From NCBI RefSeq assembly GCF_020833685.1, contig NZ_JACKZY010000004.1, forward strand, positions 186,001-250,000: a DNA stretch of 64,000 nucleotides, given 5' to 3'. Under the pieces are notes generated by a model. That model searched no databases. It worked only from the letters and a program-made list of their open reading frames with translations, and was not told where the DNA came from. The translations under genes and the position numbers were made by a program. The DNA comes from Nitratireductor sp. B36 (GTDB lineage Bacteria; Pseudomonadota; Alphaproteobacteria; Rhizobiales; Rhizobiaceae). This document shows, in pieces, positions 5,754 to 12,388 of this stretch. Position 1 is the stretch's first letter; each line of letters starts with the position of its first letter.

Positions 5754-6653
5754 TCAGGAATCGGCAGAGCGCAGCGCCTTGTAGACCCTGCTTGTTGGGG
5801 CGATGCCCATCGTGTTCGCGCAGAAAGCGACGGCATCAAGCAGCGGATCGAGCGCGATGCCGGTTTTTATGCCCTGGCCATTCAGAAGATAAACCACATC
5901 CTCTGTCGCCACATTGCCTGCAGCGCCGGGCGCGAACGGGCAGCCGCCAAGGCCCCCCGCCGCCGCGTCCACCGTGCGGATGCCCAGCCTCACCGCCTCC
6001 CAGACATTGGCGATACCCATGCCGTAGGTGTCGTGGAAATGCGCTGCCATCTCATTTATCGGAATGTCGGTTGCCACCGCTTCGACCACGGCGGCGATGC
6101 GCGCAGGCGTCGCCTTTCCCAGTGTTTCGCCGAGAGCGATCTCCTGGCAACCCATGTCGCGCAGCGCTTTGGCCACCGGCGCAACGGCCGTGGGATCCAC
6201 CGGGCCGGCATAGGGACAATCGGTGATGGTGGAGACGTAGCCGCGGACGAAGACACCCGCATCGCGCGCCCGCGCGACGATGGGTGCAAAGCGTTCGAGG
6301 GAGGCGGTCACGGTAGAACCGATGTTCTTCTCGGCGAAAGCATCGCTCGCCGCCGTAAAAACGGCGATGGCGCGCGCGCCTTCCAAAAGCGCCTGCTCAA
6401 GCCCGCGCTCGTTTGCCACCAACACCATGTCGCCTGTGTGTCGTGATGCGGACACTGCCTGCATGACCTCCGCCGTGTCCGCCATGCGTGGCACACGCTT
6501 TGGCGAAACGAACGCGCCCACTTCCATCCGTGTTACGCCGGCGCTGCGCAGCCGCTCGACCAGTTCGATGCGGTGGGCGGTTTCGATATGCTCGTTGCGC
6601 GCCTGCAATCCGTCGCGGGGAGCCACCTCGACGATGGAGACCTGTGTGCTCAC
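5754..6653 (-). CDS. mvaB: Hydroxymethylglutaryl-CoA lyase
   Basis: 299 residues, normal length. It cleaves HMG-CoA into acetyl-CoA and acetoacetate. The catalytic features of HMGL-type TIM barrels are present: APRDGLQ with Arg13-Asp14, the metal-binding HFHDTYG (His205, His207), and the signature GGCPFAPGAAGN with catalytic Cys238 and Asn247. The ATG overlaps the stop of the HMG-CoA reductase gene by four bases, so both enzymes are co-translated. HMG-CoA lyase also works in leucine breakdown, but no leucine-pathway gene is adjacent; pairing with a degradative reductase points to mevalonate catabolism. Confidence 0.92.
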   Translation of the reverse strand: MSTQVSIVEVAPRDGLQARNEHIETAHRIELVERLRSAGVTRMEVGAFVSPKRVPRMADTAEVMQAVSASRHTGDMVLVANERGLEQALLEGARAIAVFTAASDAFAEKNIGSTVTASLERFAPIVARARDAGVFVRGYVSTITDCPYAGPVDPTAVAPVAKALRDMGCQEIALGETLGKATPARIAAVVEAVATDIPINEMAAHFHDTYGMGIANVWEAVRLGIRTVDAAAGGLGGCPFAPGAAGNVATEDVVYLLNGQGIKTGIALDPLLDAVAFCANTMGIAPTSRVYKALRSADS

Positions 6654-7927
6654 CGTTCGCCCCGAATGCGGTTGAGGATCTCTTCGGCCAGATCCTGCCG
6701 CACCTTGCCGAGGGCTTTGAGTTCACTTGCCACCAGATCGATCTCGTCACCGACCGCACCGACCATCAGCGCGACATTCTGCGCGTGCAGCGCCATGTGC
6801 CCCTTCTGAATGCCGGTCGTGGCAAGCGCGCGCATGGCGGCAAAATTCTGAGCAAGACCGATGGAAACGATGATGCGTGCGAGTGCGTCGGCGGTTTCGA
6901 CGCCGAGCAATTTCAGATGGGCCTGCGCGGTCGGGTGCACCTTGGTGGCGCCGCCGATCAGGCCGACCGCCATCGGCATTTCCAGTATGCCGACCAGGTT
7001 GCCGTCCTTGTCCTTTTCCCAGCGCGACATGGAGCGGTAGCGGCCCTCGCGCGCGGCATATGCGTGTGCGCCGGCCTCGATGGCGCGGGTGTCGTTGCCG
7101 GTCGCCAGCACGACAGCGCTGACGCCGTTCATGATGCCCTTGTTGTGGGTCGCCGCGCGGTAGGGGTCCGCATCGGCGAAACGATAGGCGGAAAGCATAT
7201 CGTCGCGCACCTGTGCGCCGCCGATCTCGTCGAGTGTCCACACCGCACGTGCGCGCACCACGCGACGGTCTGCCAGATTGGTAAGAATGCGCAGCAACGT
7301 CCGGGCGCCGGTCCATTCGGCGAGCCTTGGGGCAAGCGCCTCGGCCATGCTGTTGACCGCATTGGCGCCCATCGCGTCGCGCGTGTCGACGATGATGTGC
7401 ACGATGGTCATGGGCCCTTCGACGCTGTCGATGACGCGCACGTCGATGTCGCGGAAACCACCGCCGAATTTGACGAGAAGCGGATCGGTTTCGTTGCAGA
7501 TCGCCCGGATTTCATCGATCTTCTCATAAACCTTGAGACGGACATTCTCGGGGTCGCTTGCGCCGAGAAGCTGGATCTGCGCGGCCATGACGGGTCCGCT
7601 GCCCGAGGTGAAGAAGCCGCCGGTGGAGCGGCATCGCTTGGCCGCGTTGCAGACGGCGGCCACGACGGAGGATTCTTCCGTCGCCATCGGCACCAGCACC
7701 TCGCGTCCGTCGACGATCATGTTGGTGGCGATGCCTACCGGAATCGCCATGGTGGTGATGGCGTTTTCGACGAGGCGATCAGCAAGCTCGATTTGTCCTT
7801 CGGCTGCTGCCGCGAGGCTCGATACGGCCTCGTTGCCGAGCTGCGCCTGTCGCGCAACAGCCTGAAGCCGCTCCGCTGGTGACATCTTGTGAAGGCCTTC
7901 AATACGGGACGATTGGGCGTCGCTCAT
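6650..7927 (-). CDS. mvaA: Class II (degradative) HMG-CoA reductase
   Basis: 425 residues, the size of the Pseudomonas mevalonii enzyme, which oxidises mevalonate plus CoA to HMG-CoA. The class II catalytic set can be placed: Glu85 in ATEESSVVAA, Lys263 in THNKGIMNG, Asp279 in TGNDTRAIEAGAH, and the C-terminal His381 in GHMALHAQN. DAMGAN and the EKD..G segment before LEMPM also match. The start chosen (7927, MSDAQSS) follows CAGGAC. It lies 14 bases after the TRAP large permease gene and overlaps mvaB. Hyphomicrobiales make isoprenoids by the MEP route, so a biosynthetic role is unlikely. Confidence 0.93.
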   Translation of the reverse strand: MSDAQSSRIEGLHKMSPAERLQAVARQAQLGNEAVSSLAAAAEGQIELADRLVENAITTMAIPVGIATNMIVDGREVLVPMATEESSVVAAVCNAAKRCRSTGGFFTSGSGPVMAAQIQLLGASDPENVRLKVYEKIDEIRAICNETDPLLVKFGGGFRDIDVRVIDSVEGPMTIVHIIVDTRDAMGANAVNSMAEALAPRLAEWTGARTLLRILTNLADRRVVRARAVWTLDEIGGAQVRDDMLSAYRFADADPYRAATHNKGIMNGVSAVVLATGNDTRAIEAGAHAYAAREGRYRSMSRWEKDKDGNLVGILEMPMAVGLIGGATKVHPTAQAHLKLLGVETADALARIIVSIGLAQNFAAMRALATTGIQKGHMALHAQNVALMVGAVGDEIDLVASELKALGKVRQDLAEEILNRIRGER

Positions 7928-7941
7928 TATGTGTCCTGTGG

Positions 7942-10910: not shown

Positions 10911-10974
10911 GGGACAATCAAGGGACAGTTTGGCGCAAATTGGCGATGACTGTCCCAGTTTTGAAAGTGGGACA
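10911..10974. promoter_or_regulatory. Repeated GGGACA sites, probable MocR-type operators
   Basis: Four copies of GGGACA or its complement lie in 64 bases between the divergent dctP and regulator genes: 10911-10916, 10922-10927, TGTCCC 10951-10956, and 10969-10974. The first two are direct repeats 11 bases apart, one helical turn; the last two form an inverted pair. Two copies extend to GGGACAAT. Direct repeats near divergent promoters are usual for MocR/GabR-like regulators. Confidence 0.6.
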
Positions 10975-10981
10975 ATACCTG

Positions 10982-12388
10982 ATGACCGCCACCGATACAC
11001 GCTTCTCTCGTGTCGATCGCATTGTCCAGCACGTGAGTGCGCTTCTCTCCGCGGGTGCTTATAAGCCGGGTGAGCGGTTGCCCTCCGTGCGCCAGGCTGC
11101 CCGTGAGCATGGTGTTTCCAAGAACACGATGGCGGAAGCCTATGACAGGTTGGTTGCACGGGGGCTTCTCGAGGCGCGGCCGGGGTCGGGTTACTACGTT
11201 GCCCAGTTCCAGCTCGACCGGCCTTCGCCTCCCGCCCCGCATGTCGCTGCGGCGGTGGATGTGGTTTCTCTCCTGCGGGAGCAGCTTGACCAGCACTATG
11301 AGGTGCGCCCGGGTGATGGCAGGCCGCCGGCCTCGTGGATGGAGGGCGCGGAGCTCAAACGATATTTTTCCAGCTTCAGGACGGCAGACGTCGACACGGT
11401 GGATTTCGGTTACGGCAGTTCCTGGGGGTATGCGCCCCTGCGCGAGCGTCTGCGCGTCCTGCTTCTGGAGCGGTCGATCACCGCCCAGCCAGACGGGCTT
11501 CTCCTCACACACGGGGTCAATCACGGGCTCGACCTGATCATCCGGCATCTTATTGAGCCGGGCGATACGGTGTTTGTCGATGATCCGGGCTACTATCCGC
11601 TGTTTGCAAAGCTGACGCTTGCCAAGGCGAAGATCATCGGCATCTCCCGTGGTCATGACGGGCCGGATCTGGAGGACCTGGCAGCGAAGCTTGCGCTTCA
11701 CAGACCAAAGGTGTTTTTCACCCAGTCGCTGGCTCACAACCCCACCGGCAGCACCTTGTCTCCGGCGGTTTCGTTCGGCCTTATGCAGCTTGCCGAGCGC
11801 TGGGGGTTTCTGCTTGTGGAGAACGACGCTCTGGCGGATATCTTGCCCGCGACACTGCCGCGCCTCGCATCCCTCGATCAGCTCAACCGGGTTCTGTATG
11901 TCGGCACCTTCTCGAAAACGCTTTCAGCCAGCCTGCGCTGCGGTTTCGTCGCCGGCGATCCCGCGATCATCAGCGCTCTAGGCAATCTGAAGATGCTGAC
12001 CACGGTGGCCACCTCCGACTATGTCGAGCGGTTTGTGTTTCATCTCATTCAGGGCGGCCAATATCTGCGGCATCTGCGAAAGCTGAAATCCCGCGTCGAG
12101 GAGGCACACAAGACCTCGCTCGCGCGACTTGAGGCGCTGGGCCTGACGGTCCGCAAGAGTGTCTCGCCGGGCTTCTACCTTTGGGTGGAGTTTCCCGATT
12201 CAATAGACGAGATGGCGCTGTGCCGCGCAGCATCGGAACAAAGCATATTCCTTGCACCTGGCAGCGTCTTCCGTCCGGGCAAATCGGTAAATGGCAAGGC
12301 AGCGATCCGGGTGAATGTTGCCTACGGCGCGCATCCGCGCTTCCTTGCCTTTCTGGCGGACCAGTTAAAAAACGCGCCTCGTGGCTAG
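10982..12388 (+). CDS. MocR-type regulator (GntR wHTH fused to aminotransferase-like domain)
   Basis: 468 residues. Residues 10-75 form a GntR winged helix (YKPGERLPSVRQAAREHGVS, EARPGSGYYV). The rest is a fold-type I aminotransferase domain, with the PLP-binding Lys312 in VGTFSKTLSASLR and LLTHGVNHGLD earlier. It is divergent from dctPQM-mvaAB and separated by the GGGACA repeats, so it probably controls that operon and itself. An ATG 36 bases upstream (10946) is in frame, but 10982 gives the usual short N-terminus. What effector a PLP protein senses in mevalonate use is unclear. Confidence 0.88.
   Translation: MTATDTRFSRVDRIVQHVSALLSAGAYKPGERLPSVRQAAREHGVSKNTMAEAYDRLVARGLLEARPGSGYYVAQFQLDRPSPPAPHVAAAVDVVSLLREQLDQHYEVRPGDGRPPASWMEGAELKRYFSSFRTADVDTVDFGYGSSWGYAPLRERLRVLLLERSITAQPDGLLLTHGVNHGLDLIIRHLIEPGDTVFVDDPGYYPLFAKLTLAKAKIIGISRGHDGPDLEDLAAKLALHRPKVFFTQSLAHNPTGSTLSPAVSFGLMQLAERWGFLLVENDALADILPATLPRLASLDQLNRVLYVGTFSKTLSASLRCGFVAGDPAIISALGNLKMLTTVATSDYVERFVFHLIQGGQYLRHLRKLKSRVEEAHKTSLARLEALGLTVRKSVSPGFYLWVEFPDSIDEMALCRAASEQSIFLAPGSVFRPGKSVNGKAAIRVNVAYGAHPRFLAFLADQLKNAPRG

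Follow-up and report, generated by a model that had tools for sequence, protein, structure and literature searches.

The six-gene locus and its limits

The 64,000-nucleotide stretch of Nitratireductor sp. B36 DNA analysed here (the window; contig NZ_JACKZY010000004.1, positions 186,001 to 250,000) carries, between its positions 5754 and 12388, the genes of a tripartite ATP-independent periplasmic (TRAP) transporter (dctP, dctQ and dctM), a 3-hydroxy-3-methylglutaryl-coenzyme A (HMG-CoA) reductase (HMGR) and an HMG-CoA lyase, together with a divergent gene for a MocR-type regulator. All six genes are present with open frames. On comparative sequence evidence this module is very probably a mevalonate utilisation unit that joins TRAP uptake, catabolism by HMGR and lyase, acetoacetyl-CoA synthetase (AACS) activity supplied by the rest of the genome, and control by MocR. 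Its features, with PLP standing for pyridoxal 5'-phosphate, are as follows.

9819..10853, minus strand: dctP, TRAP solute-binding protein of 344 amino acids (PF03480, 152.9 bits), the proposed mevalonate receptor
9252..9755, minus strand: dctQ, TRAP small permease (PF04290, 92.1 bits); the open frame extends up to 9815
7942..9255, minus strand: dctM, TRAP large permease (TIGR00786, 308 bits, cut-off 268.45)
6650..7927, minus strand: HMGR (mvaA), class II degradative HMG-CoA reductase of 425 amino acids (TIGR00532, 430.6 bits, cut-off 259.95)
5754..6653, minus strand: HMG-CoA lyase (mvaB) of 299 amino acids (NF004283, 364.3 bits, cut-off 246)
10982..12388, plus strand: MocR-type regulator with GntR and aminotransferase-like domains (PF00392, PF00155) and presumed PLP lysine K312
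10922..10956, minus strand: proposed MocR operator GGGACAGT-N19-ACTGTCCC (minus-strand reading), inside the MocR-dctP gap and kept in relatives
10886..10921, minus strand: additional half-site-like boxes toward dctP, seen by eye; a direct repeat ATTGTCCC lies 11 bases past the second box and is followed by TATGACAATTT

The start of dctP was refined to the ATG at 10853, behind GGAGGAAGCA, and those of dctM, HMGR and lyase to 9255, 7927 and 6653 (GTG); dctQ probably starts at 9755, by comparison with the Breoghania locus L018, and MocR probably at 10982. With 4-base overlaps between dctQ and dctM and between HMGR and lyase, and 14 bases between dctM and HMGR, the five minus-strand genes form the packed dctP-dctQ-dctM-mvaA-mvaB operon that the initial annotation had described, and MocR diverges from dctP across a 128-base gap. 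Scans of the window returned no Rfam RNA element at gathering scores, one promoter against 2.0 expected from shuffled sequence and eight terminators against 5.3 expected. Among the eight, a strong hairpin with a T-run at 12397-12371 on the minus strand is positioned to terminate the convergent gene for an M24 peptidase.

When the window's first 20 kb were aligned by blastn to plasmid pOM-1 of Nitratireductor sp. OM-1 (L183), a single piece resulted, 5769-12381 at 87.6% DNA identity, and nothing outside it. The pOM-1 locus (DEJ54_RS21285-21310) agrees with the window in all six genes, in their order and in its operator boxes, and differs in its unrelated flanking genes. Alignments to two genomes of the same genus end nearly at the same places (L197, 5769-12364; L199, 5770-12354), and two others (L196 and L198) are collinear with the window past these limits and into the flanks. 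Because homology to pOM-1, L197 and L199 ends at the edges of the block, the six genes are moved or retained as one block, and judged by these alignments positions 5754 and 12388 are the evolutionary limits of the unit. All four other HMGR-bearing genomes of the genus (L196-L199) have the six genes in this order, HMGR being found in five of ten same-genus genomes including that of the window.

Wider comparisons drew on 52 gene-called loci (39 of 80 HMGR loci, 12 loci from the same class and the window; L028 gave no HMGR frame), for which the gene caller was weighted by codon use. The other 41 of the 80 HMGR loci, largely from archaeal or other metagenome-assembled genomes (MAGs), were scanned with the window proteins only, and all 16 loci from relatives were scanned. 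Across these sets the order dctPQM-HMGR-lyase is narrow, having been observed in this genus, OM-1 and Breoghania alone, and in many loci that share the TRAP type the lyase does not adjoin HMGR. Since the position of the lyase varies between loci, we reject the five-gene order as a general signature, and the survey of that order which the initial annotation had proposed returned a local arrangement.

Catabolic enzymes and the TRAP receptor

The reductase of the locus belongs to the class II degradative HMGRs, scoring above the equivalog cut-off of TIGR00532 and reaching only 62.5 bits with the NADPH HMGR model, against 430.6 with the degradative model. It aligns over 419 residues (445.7 bits) with 1qax, which we take to be the structure of Pseudomonas mevalonii HMGR, and the catalytic Glu, Lys, Asp and His are kept: E85, K263, D279 and H377 align with 1qax positions 83, 267, 283 and 381, and Asp148 with Asp146, the roles of these five positions in HMGR being assumed here. 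Asp148 also aligns with the Asp at residue 137 of the annotated Ruegeria pomeroyi HMGR, which corresponds to the Asp154 of PMC12292504 only if the protein start lies 17 residues upstream. The genome (4.19 Mb in 9 contigs) contains a single HMGR match, and HMGR above the cut-off is sporadic, occurring in 13 of 385 genomes of the class and 17 of 120 relatives. HMGRs on contigs filed as archaeal MAGs (L036-L038, L040-L042 and others) are 48-56% identical to that of the window, about as near to it as many proteobacterial loci.

The lyase likewise scores well above the cut-off of its model and keeps the motifs PRDGLQ, HFHDTYG and GGLGGCPF at residues 12, 205 and 233, to which we presume the usual roles of the Arg-Asp, HxH and Cys-loop motifs apply. 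P. mevalonii has an mvaAB operon, and the adjoining HMGR and lyase genes of the window follow the same arrangement of degradative HMGR and then HMG-CoA lyase, differing in that TRAP genes precede mvaA. In this pathway mevalonate, CoA and two NAD+ give HMG-CoA, which is cleaved to acetyl-CoA and acetoacetate, and acetoacetate is then converted to acetoacetyl-CoA. The initial annotation was right that acetoacetate activation lies outside the window; the genome supplies it, an AACS being encoded on contig C1 (1011.4 bits, cut-off 520.9), so that the route to acetyl-CoA can be completed. Succinyl-CoA:acetoacetate transferase was considered for this step and set aside in favour of AACS, as its match was sub-threshold (23.1 against 243.55 bits). 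On paper, the predicted route from mevalonate to acetoacetyl-CoA is complete.

The direction of the HMGR reaction bears on this assignment, since the enzyme could instead reduce HMG-CoA to mevalonate for isoprenoids or another product, with the transporter as an incidental neighbour. In PMC12292504 the class II HMGR of R. pomeroyi is assayed in both directions, and Dxr (TIGR00243) was not found in the genome of the window. The latter weighs against a purely catabolic enzyme, because it leaves the isoprenoid route not fully accounted for; a DXR-II type enzyme, which occurs in Brucella, may replace Dxr by analogy. Against biosynthesis stand the lyase in the same operon, the preference for the degradative NAD model over the NADPH model, the presence of IspH (324.9 bits, cut-off 187.85) and the lack of any mevalonate kinase match (TIGR00549) in the genome at E 0.001. 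Since IspH is present and mevalonate kinase has no match, HMGR would not be feeding isoprenoid synthesis and its role would be catabolic, as had been proposed at the outset; on these two grounds we rejected the biosynthetic reading, whose probability we consider negligible, and we infer that the reaction in the cell is the oxidation of mevalonate.

To avoid circularity, the searches bearing on the substrate of the transporter used DctP as the query. DctP, DctQ and DctM score above the cut-offs of PF03480, PF04290 and PF06808 (NF037995, 90.1 against 50 bits), and DctP lies outside the narrower TIGR00787 dctP subfamily (71.4 against 175.05 bits). Among 289 genomes of the class, all four DctP matches above 500 bits adjoin HMGR (the window's own, G033, G162 and G260, the last three from one genus), and the next-best match falls to 189 bits and 35% identity. 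Among 731 plasmid records with a match, the 11 best (about 60-96% identity, two of them copies in one Sulfitobacter strain) all adjoin HMGR, eight by annotation and three by phmmer on unannotated records; below these the identity falls to about 32%, and no HMGR lay near the next-best DctPs in the two records opened. In a tree of hand-chosen rows (25 HMGR-linked loci and the window, 28 next-best homologues and four receptors of a second TRAP type), all 26 HMGR-linked DctPs form one clade with support 100/100.

This clade is paired with HMGR in more than one way. The HMGR tree contains two lineages (SH-aLRT 99 for the split, quick tree), one holding all 14 rows with the order dctPQM-HMGR and the other all 12 rows with the about equally common order HMGR-dctPQM, and the one DctP clade accompanies both lineages and both orders, a pairing that speaks for one substrate in common. 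The second TRAP type, present beside degradative HMGR in L034, L099, L100 and L101, is more distant: its DctP scores only 104-112 bits against that of the window, and an independent recruitment to HMGR loci is possible.

The predicted ligand pocket of DctP combines kept and altered positions. In TakP, according to PMC1839085, Arg177 and Tyr100 hold the carboxylate of the ligand, and the cation is held by Gln156, Glu214, Glu240 and the carbonyl of Trp215. Window residues R177, Y100, E157, D214, Q240 and R215 fall at the TakP ligand- and cation-site positions, a correspondence transferred by way of an outgroup row that had been aligned with TakP. DctP keeps the clamp and cation positions and is altered at position 215. 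Like DctP, both TakP (2hzk/2hzl) and TTHA0766 (2zzv) have the same fold, Tyr100, Arg177, an acid at 214 and Gln or Glu at 240; they differ in having Trp or Phe where DctP has Arg215. Lys95, Asp98, Arg215 and Asp217 occur in all 26 HMGR-linked DctPs and in none of the 28 outgroup rows, making Lys95, Asp98 and Asp217 private to the clade among the rows compared, as is Arg215, where TakP has Trp215. The altered position 215 would fit a hydroxy acid that exceeds pyruvate in length.

These structural comparisons also speak for a different cargo, such as 3-hydroxy-3-methylglutarate, lactate, pyruvate or another hydroxy or keto acid, with the transporter standing beside HMGR through a gathering of acid-catabolism genes. 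The AlphaFold model of DctP (mean pLDDT 86.9) is nearest the lactate receptor 2zzx/2zzv (TM 0.83-0.84); mevalonate appears in none of 50 (shortened) titles among the Foldseek matches listed. The experimental structures closest to DctP are receptors for lactate with Ca (2zzv, 2zzx) or for alpha-keto acids (2hzk, 7ug8), whose carboxylate and cation positions DctP keeps. That lactate or 2-oxo acids are the ligands of these closest receptors counts against mevalonate and leaves a related hydroxy acid as a possible ligand. Set against this, the searches not started from HMGR placed every close relative of DctP beside HMGR, pocket position 215 is Arg throughout the clade and in no outgroup row, the pairing recurs in both gene orders and both HMGR lineages, and use of 3-hydroxy-3-methylglutarate or lactate would not need HMGR. 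We regard a different cargo as quite unlikely. The DctP- and MocR-started searches, in which the best relatives all lie beside HMGR, strengthen the initial proposal that the TRAP system imports mevalonate; they strongly suggest this substrate, with DctP as the putative mevalonate receptor.

R. pomeroyi DSS-3 carries a comparable locus on its megaplasmid (SPO_RS20640-20660), with MocR divergent from HMGR, dctP, dctQ and dctM and a DctP 64% identical to that of the window; it differs in its HMGR-dctPQM order, the lack of an adjoining lyase and an operator gap of 18. An R. pomeroyi HMGR, which we infer to be the gene at this locus, is described in PMC12292504 as mainly NADH-dependent, and PMC10130141 is a study of R. 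pomeroyi transporters.

The divergent MocR regulator and its candidate operator

With a GntR DNA-binding domain, a class I aminotransferase-like domain and a PLP lysine, the divergent regulator belongs to the MocR/GabR family. It passes none of the named MocR equivalogs examined (PdxR, YczR, rhizopine MocR, EhuR and GabR), the best being PdxR at 216.8 against 320 bits and the others lying further below their cut-offs. K312 and R443 are present in all 43 HMGR-linked MocRs; we take K312 to be the PLP lysine, by resemblance to class I aminotransferases, and R443 presumably occupies the place of the carboxylate-binding arginine.

This regulator accompanies HMGR in loci with different transporters. 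MocR diverges from HMGR or its operon in 27 of the 52 gene-called loci, whether the accompanying transporter is DctPQM, a TctA type (confirmed by PF01970 in L029 and L096), a Peripla_BP_6 receptor (L098) or another, and MocR adjoins HMGR in nine of the 13 class genomes with HMGR above the cut-off. A MocR-started search of 289 genomes returned six matches above 500 bits, from four genera and all at HMGR loci, the next match reaching 349 bits. In the MocR tree, 42 of the 43 HMGR-linked MocRs, including that of the window, fall in one group (SH-aLRT 96, quick tree) that spans several transporter types and includes the Pseudomonas loci L096 and L097. Left out of this tree were near-copies (L107, L109, L191-L193, L196-L198) and L086, which has a split frame; L018 was entered and has no MocR.

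The pseudomonad loci bear directly on the initial suggestion that a PLP-type regulator here replaces the known activator. That activator of P. mevalonii is reportedly MvaT, which is also reported to be an H-NS family member. MvaT is not a MocR, yet L096 (whose HMGR scores 782 bits against 1qax) and L097 carry a MocR of the window's clade divergent from HMGR and lyase (mvaA-mvaB), followed by a small gene and a TctA-type permease gene after mvaB (PF01970 tested in L096). Because the clade extends across transporter types and into pseudomonads, we do not read MocR as a local replacement; instead, on these comparisons, MocR looks like the usual partner of degradative HMGR.

The region between MocR and dctP contains a candidate site of action. 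The pair GGGACAGT-N19-ACTGTCCC (C4:196922-196956) has no second counterpart in the genome at gaps of 12-32, and the additional half-site-like boxes beside it are, by eye, partly similar in the nearest loci. Over 27 loci the best box pair has a gap of 19 in 15 and of 18 in seven, with a mean of 2.56 mismatches at gap 19 against 6.2 in shuffled regions (lowest shuffled mean 5.8). The split candidate operator GGKACAGT-N18/19-ACTGTMCC occurs with at most one mismatch at 28 of 43 HMGR-linked MocR loci, at 30 when gaps of 17-21 are allowed and at 34 with two mismatches, the window's own site being counted from the 27-locus scan; in random 600-base pieces of the same loci, which may include the real site, it occurs with at most one mismatch in two of 82. 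Exact gap-19 sites number two in 385 class genomes (in two genomes), both at HMGR/MocR loci. According to the main text of PMC5320631, MocR motifs comprise between two and four boxes in direct and inverted orientation, and the putative split-box architecture here fits that description.

Beyond HMGR loci the box pair persists in related form. The nine off-HMGR MocRs compared are the MocR-search matches for which loci existed, and before five of these more distant genes a related pair lies within two mismatches, taking the form AGTACAGT-N18-ACTGTMTC in four (L219, L220, L223 and L225). Position 48 of the helix-turn-helix is Asn in 42 of 43 HMGR-linked MocRs and Ser in seven of the nine off-HMGR MocRs. 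One off-locus one-mismatch site, G260 C4:519626, stands some 225 bases ahead of a MocR paralogue.

Several observations count against control of the operon by this regulator through these boxes. At 15 of the 43 MocR loci the candidate operator is missing at gap 18 or 19 with one mismatch, and nine exceed two mismatches even when the gap may range over 17-21; one of these nine, L097, has one mismatch at gap 18 in the 27-locus scan. The operator pattern was derived from the same loci in which it was counted. Of 18 one-mismatch sites in the 385 class genomes, five are at HMGR loci and 13 elsewhere. Reversing the pattern as a control yielded even more sites, about 50, which leaves exact sites as the only informative ones across whole genomes; as a genome-wide predictor the one-mismatch operator is ruled out, its off-locus sites being no commoner than those of the reversed control. 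MocR does not adjoin HMGR in four of the 13 HMGR-bearing class genomes (G001, G194, G287 and G318), the Breoghania operon (L018) has no adjoining MocR, and the MocR of L211 falls outside the clade among MocRs from elsewhere.

Together with the abundance of MocR-like genes, which have a match in 183 of 289 genomes, the L211 and L018 cases favour a reading in which the divergent MocR acts on other targets and the repeats beside it belong to another regulator. The single clade holding all but one of the HMGR-linked MocRs, the confinement of the best MocR relatives to HMGR loci and the related box pair before the own genes of distant off-HMGR MocRs speak against it, and we judge it improbable. Control of the mevalonate operon by MocR is strongly suggested by these comparisons, and its DNA binding, effector and sign of control are described here as predictions.

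We propose the following mechanism for the mevalonate utilisation unit. Periplasmic DctP would catch mevalonate, probably by clamping the carboxylate with Tyr100 and Arg177 and by means of a bound cation, on the model of the related lactate and alpha-keto-acid receptors, and the clade-specific Arg215 would read the remainder of the molecule. DctQM would drive import by an ion gradient, HMGR would convert mevalonate to HMG-CoA with NAD+ and CoA, the lyase would yield acetyl-CoA and acetoacetate, and AACS, encoded elsewhere in the genome, would activate acetoacetate. The divergent MocR would control the operon, and probably itself, via the inverted boxes 19 bases apart.

Neighbouring genes and implications

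A large autotransporter gene (PF03797) followed by one for an IalB-family protein (PF06776) occupies 87-3878, and a TetR gene and a RibD_C/DHFR-like gene stand in tandem at 4549-5697, with a palindrome-like sequence ATACAATGTAT just upstream (about 5684-5696) as a candidate TetR operator. The region 12425-20188 holds the M24 peptidase gene and dipeptide-type ABC genes (a binding protein, two permeases and two ATPases), along with an HTH-cupin regulator and a GAF-domain protein, and is likely a peptide utilisation cluster. At other HMGR loci, genes for a family III CoA-transferase and an enoyl-CoA hydratase lie near HMGR (L044, L045, L046, L047, L055, L075, L083, L103, L104, L207 and L211; each family tested on one representative), perhaps an alternative handling of HMG-CoA or a related acyl-CoA.

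Enzymes and pathway were already known; newly delimited are the TRAP importer clade, the regulator clade and the proposed operator. In the open-access literature, no paper naming a mevalonate importer or a MocR regulator for mevalonate was found among the matches listed. The MocR regulons of Suvorova and Rodionov 2016 (PMC5320631) share with the window a protein of GntR and aminotransferase-like domains; those named in the main text of that paper (PLP, GABA, taurine and ectoine) all involve PLP or amines, and that main text contains none of the terms hydroxymethylglutaryl, HMG and mva, although the supplement could contain the regulator unnamed. Mevalonate, HMG-CoA and acetoacetate have no such primary amine from which an ordinary external aldimine could be made. 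This leaves two options: non-covalent binding of the effector, or reaction of a keto acid, acetoacetate for example, with the pyridoxamine form.

The broader proposition, which we hold to be about evenly balanced, is that the entire PLP-fold MocR clade senses a pathway without an amino compound and, with the DctP signature, would define a widespread, often plasmid-borne mevalonate regulon with interchangeable importers. The locus thereby raises the question of how a PLP-fold regulator senses an amine-free pathway. Our analysis offers a residue signature by which TRAP receptors for mevalonate could be annotated, delimits a regulator clade together with its candidate operator, points to R. pomeroyi DSS-3 as a model organism with the locus, and supplies parts for a mevalonate biosensor in terpenoid engineering. 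For the biology of these bacteria, the findings suggest that many Proteobacteria gain enough from mevalonate as a nutrient to maintain an importer dedicated to it.

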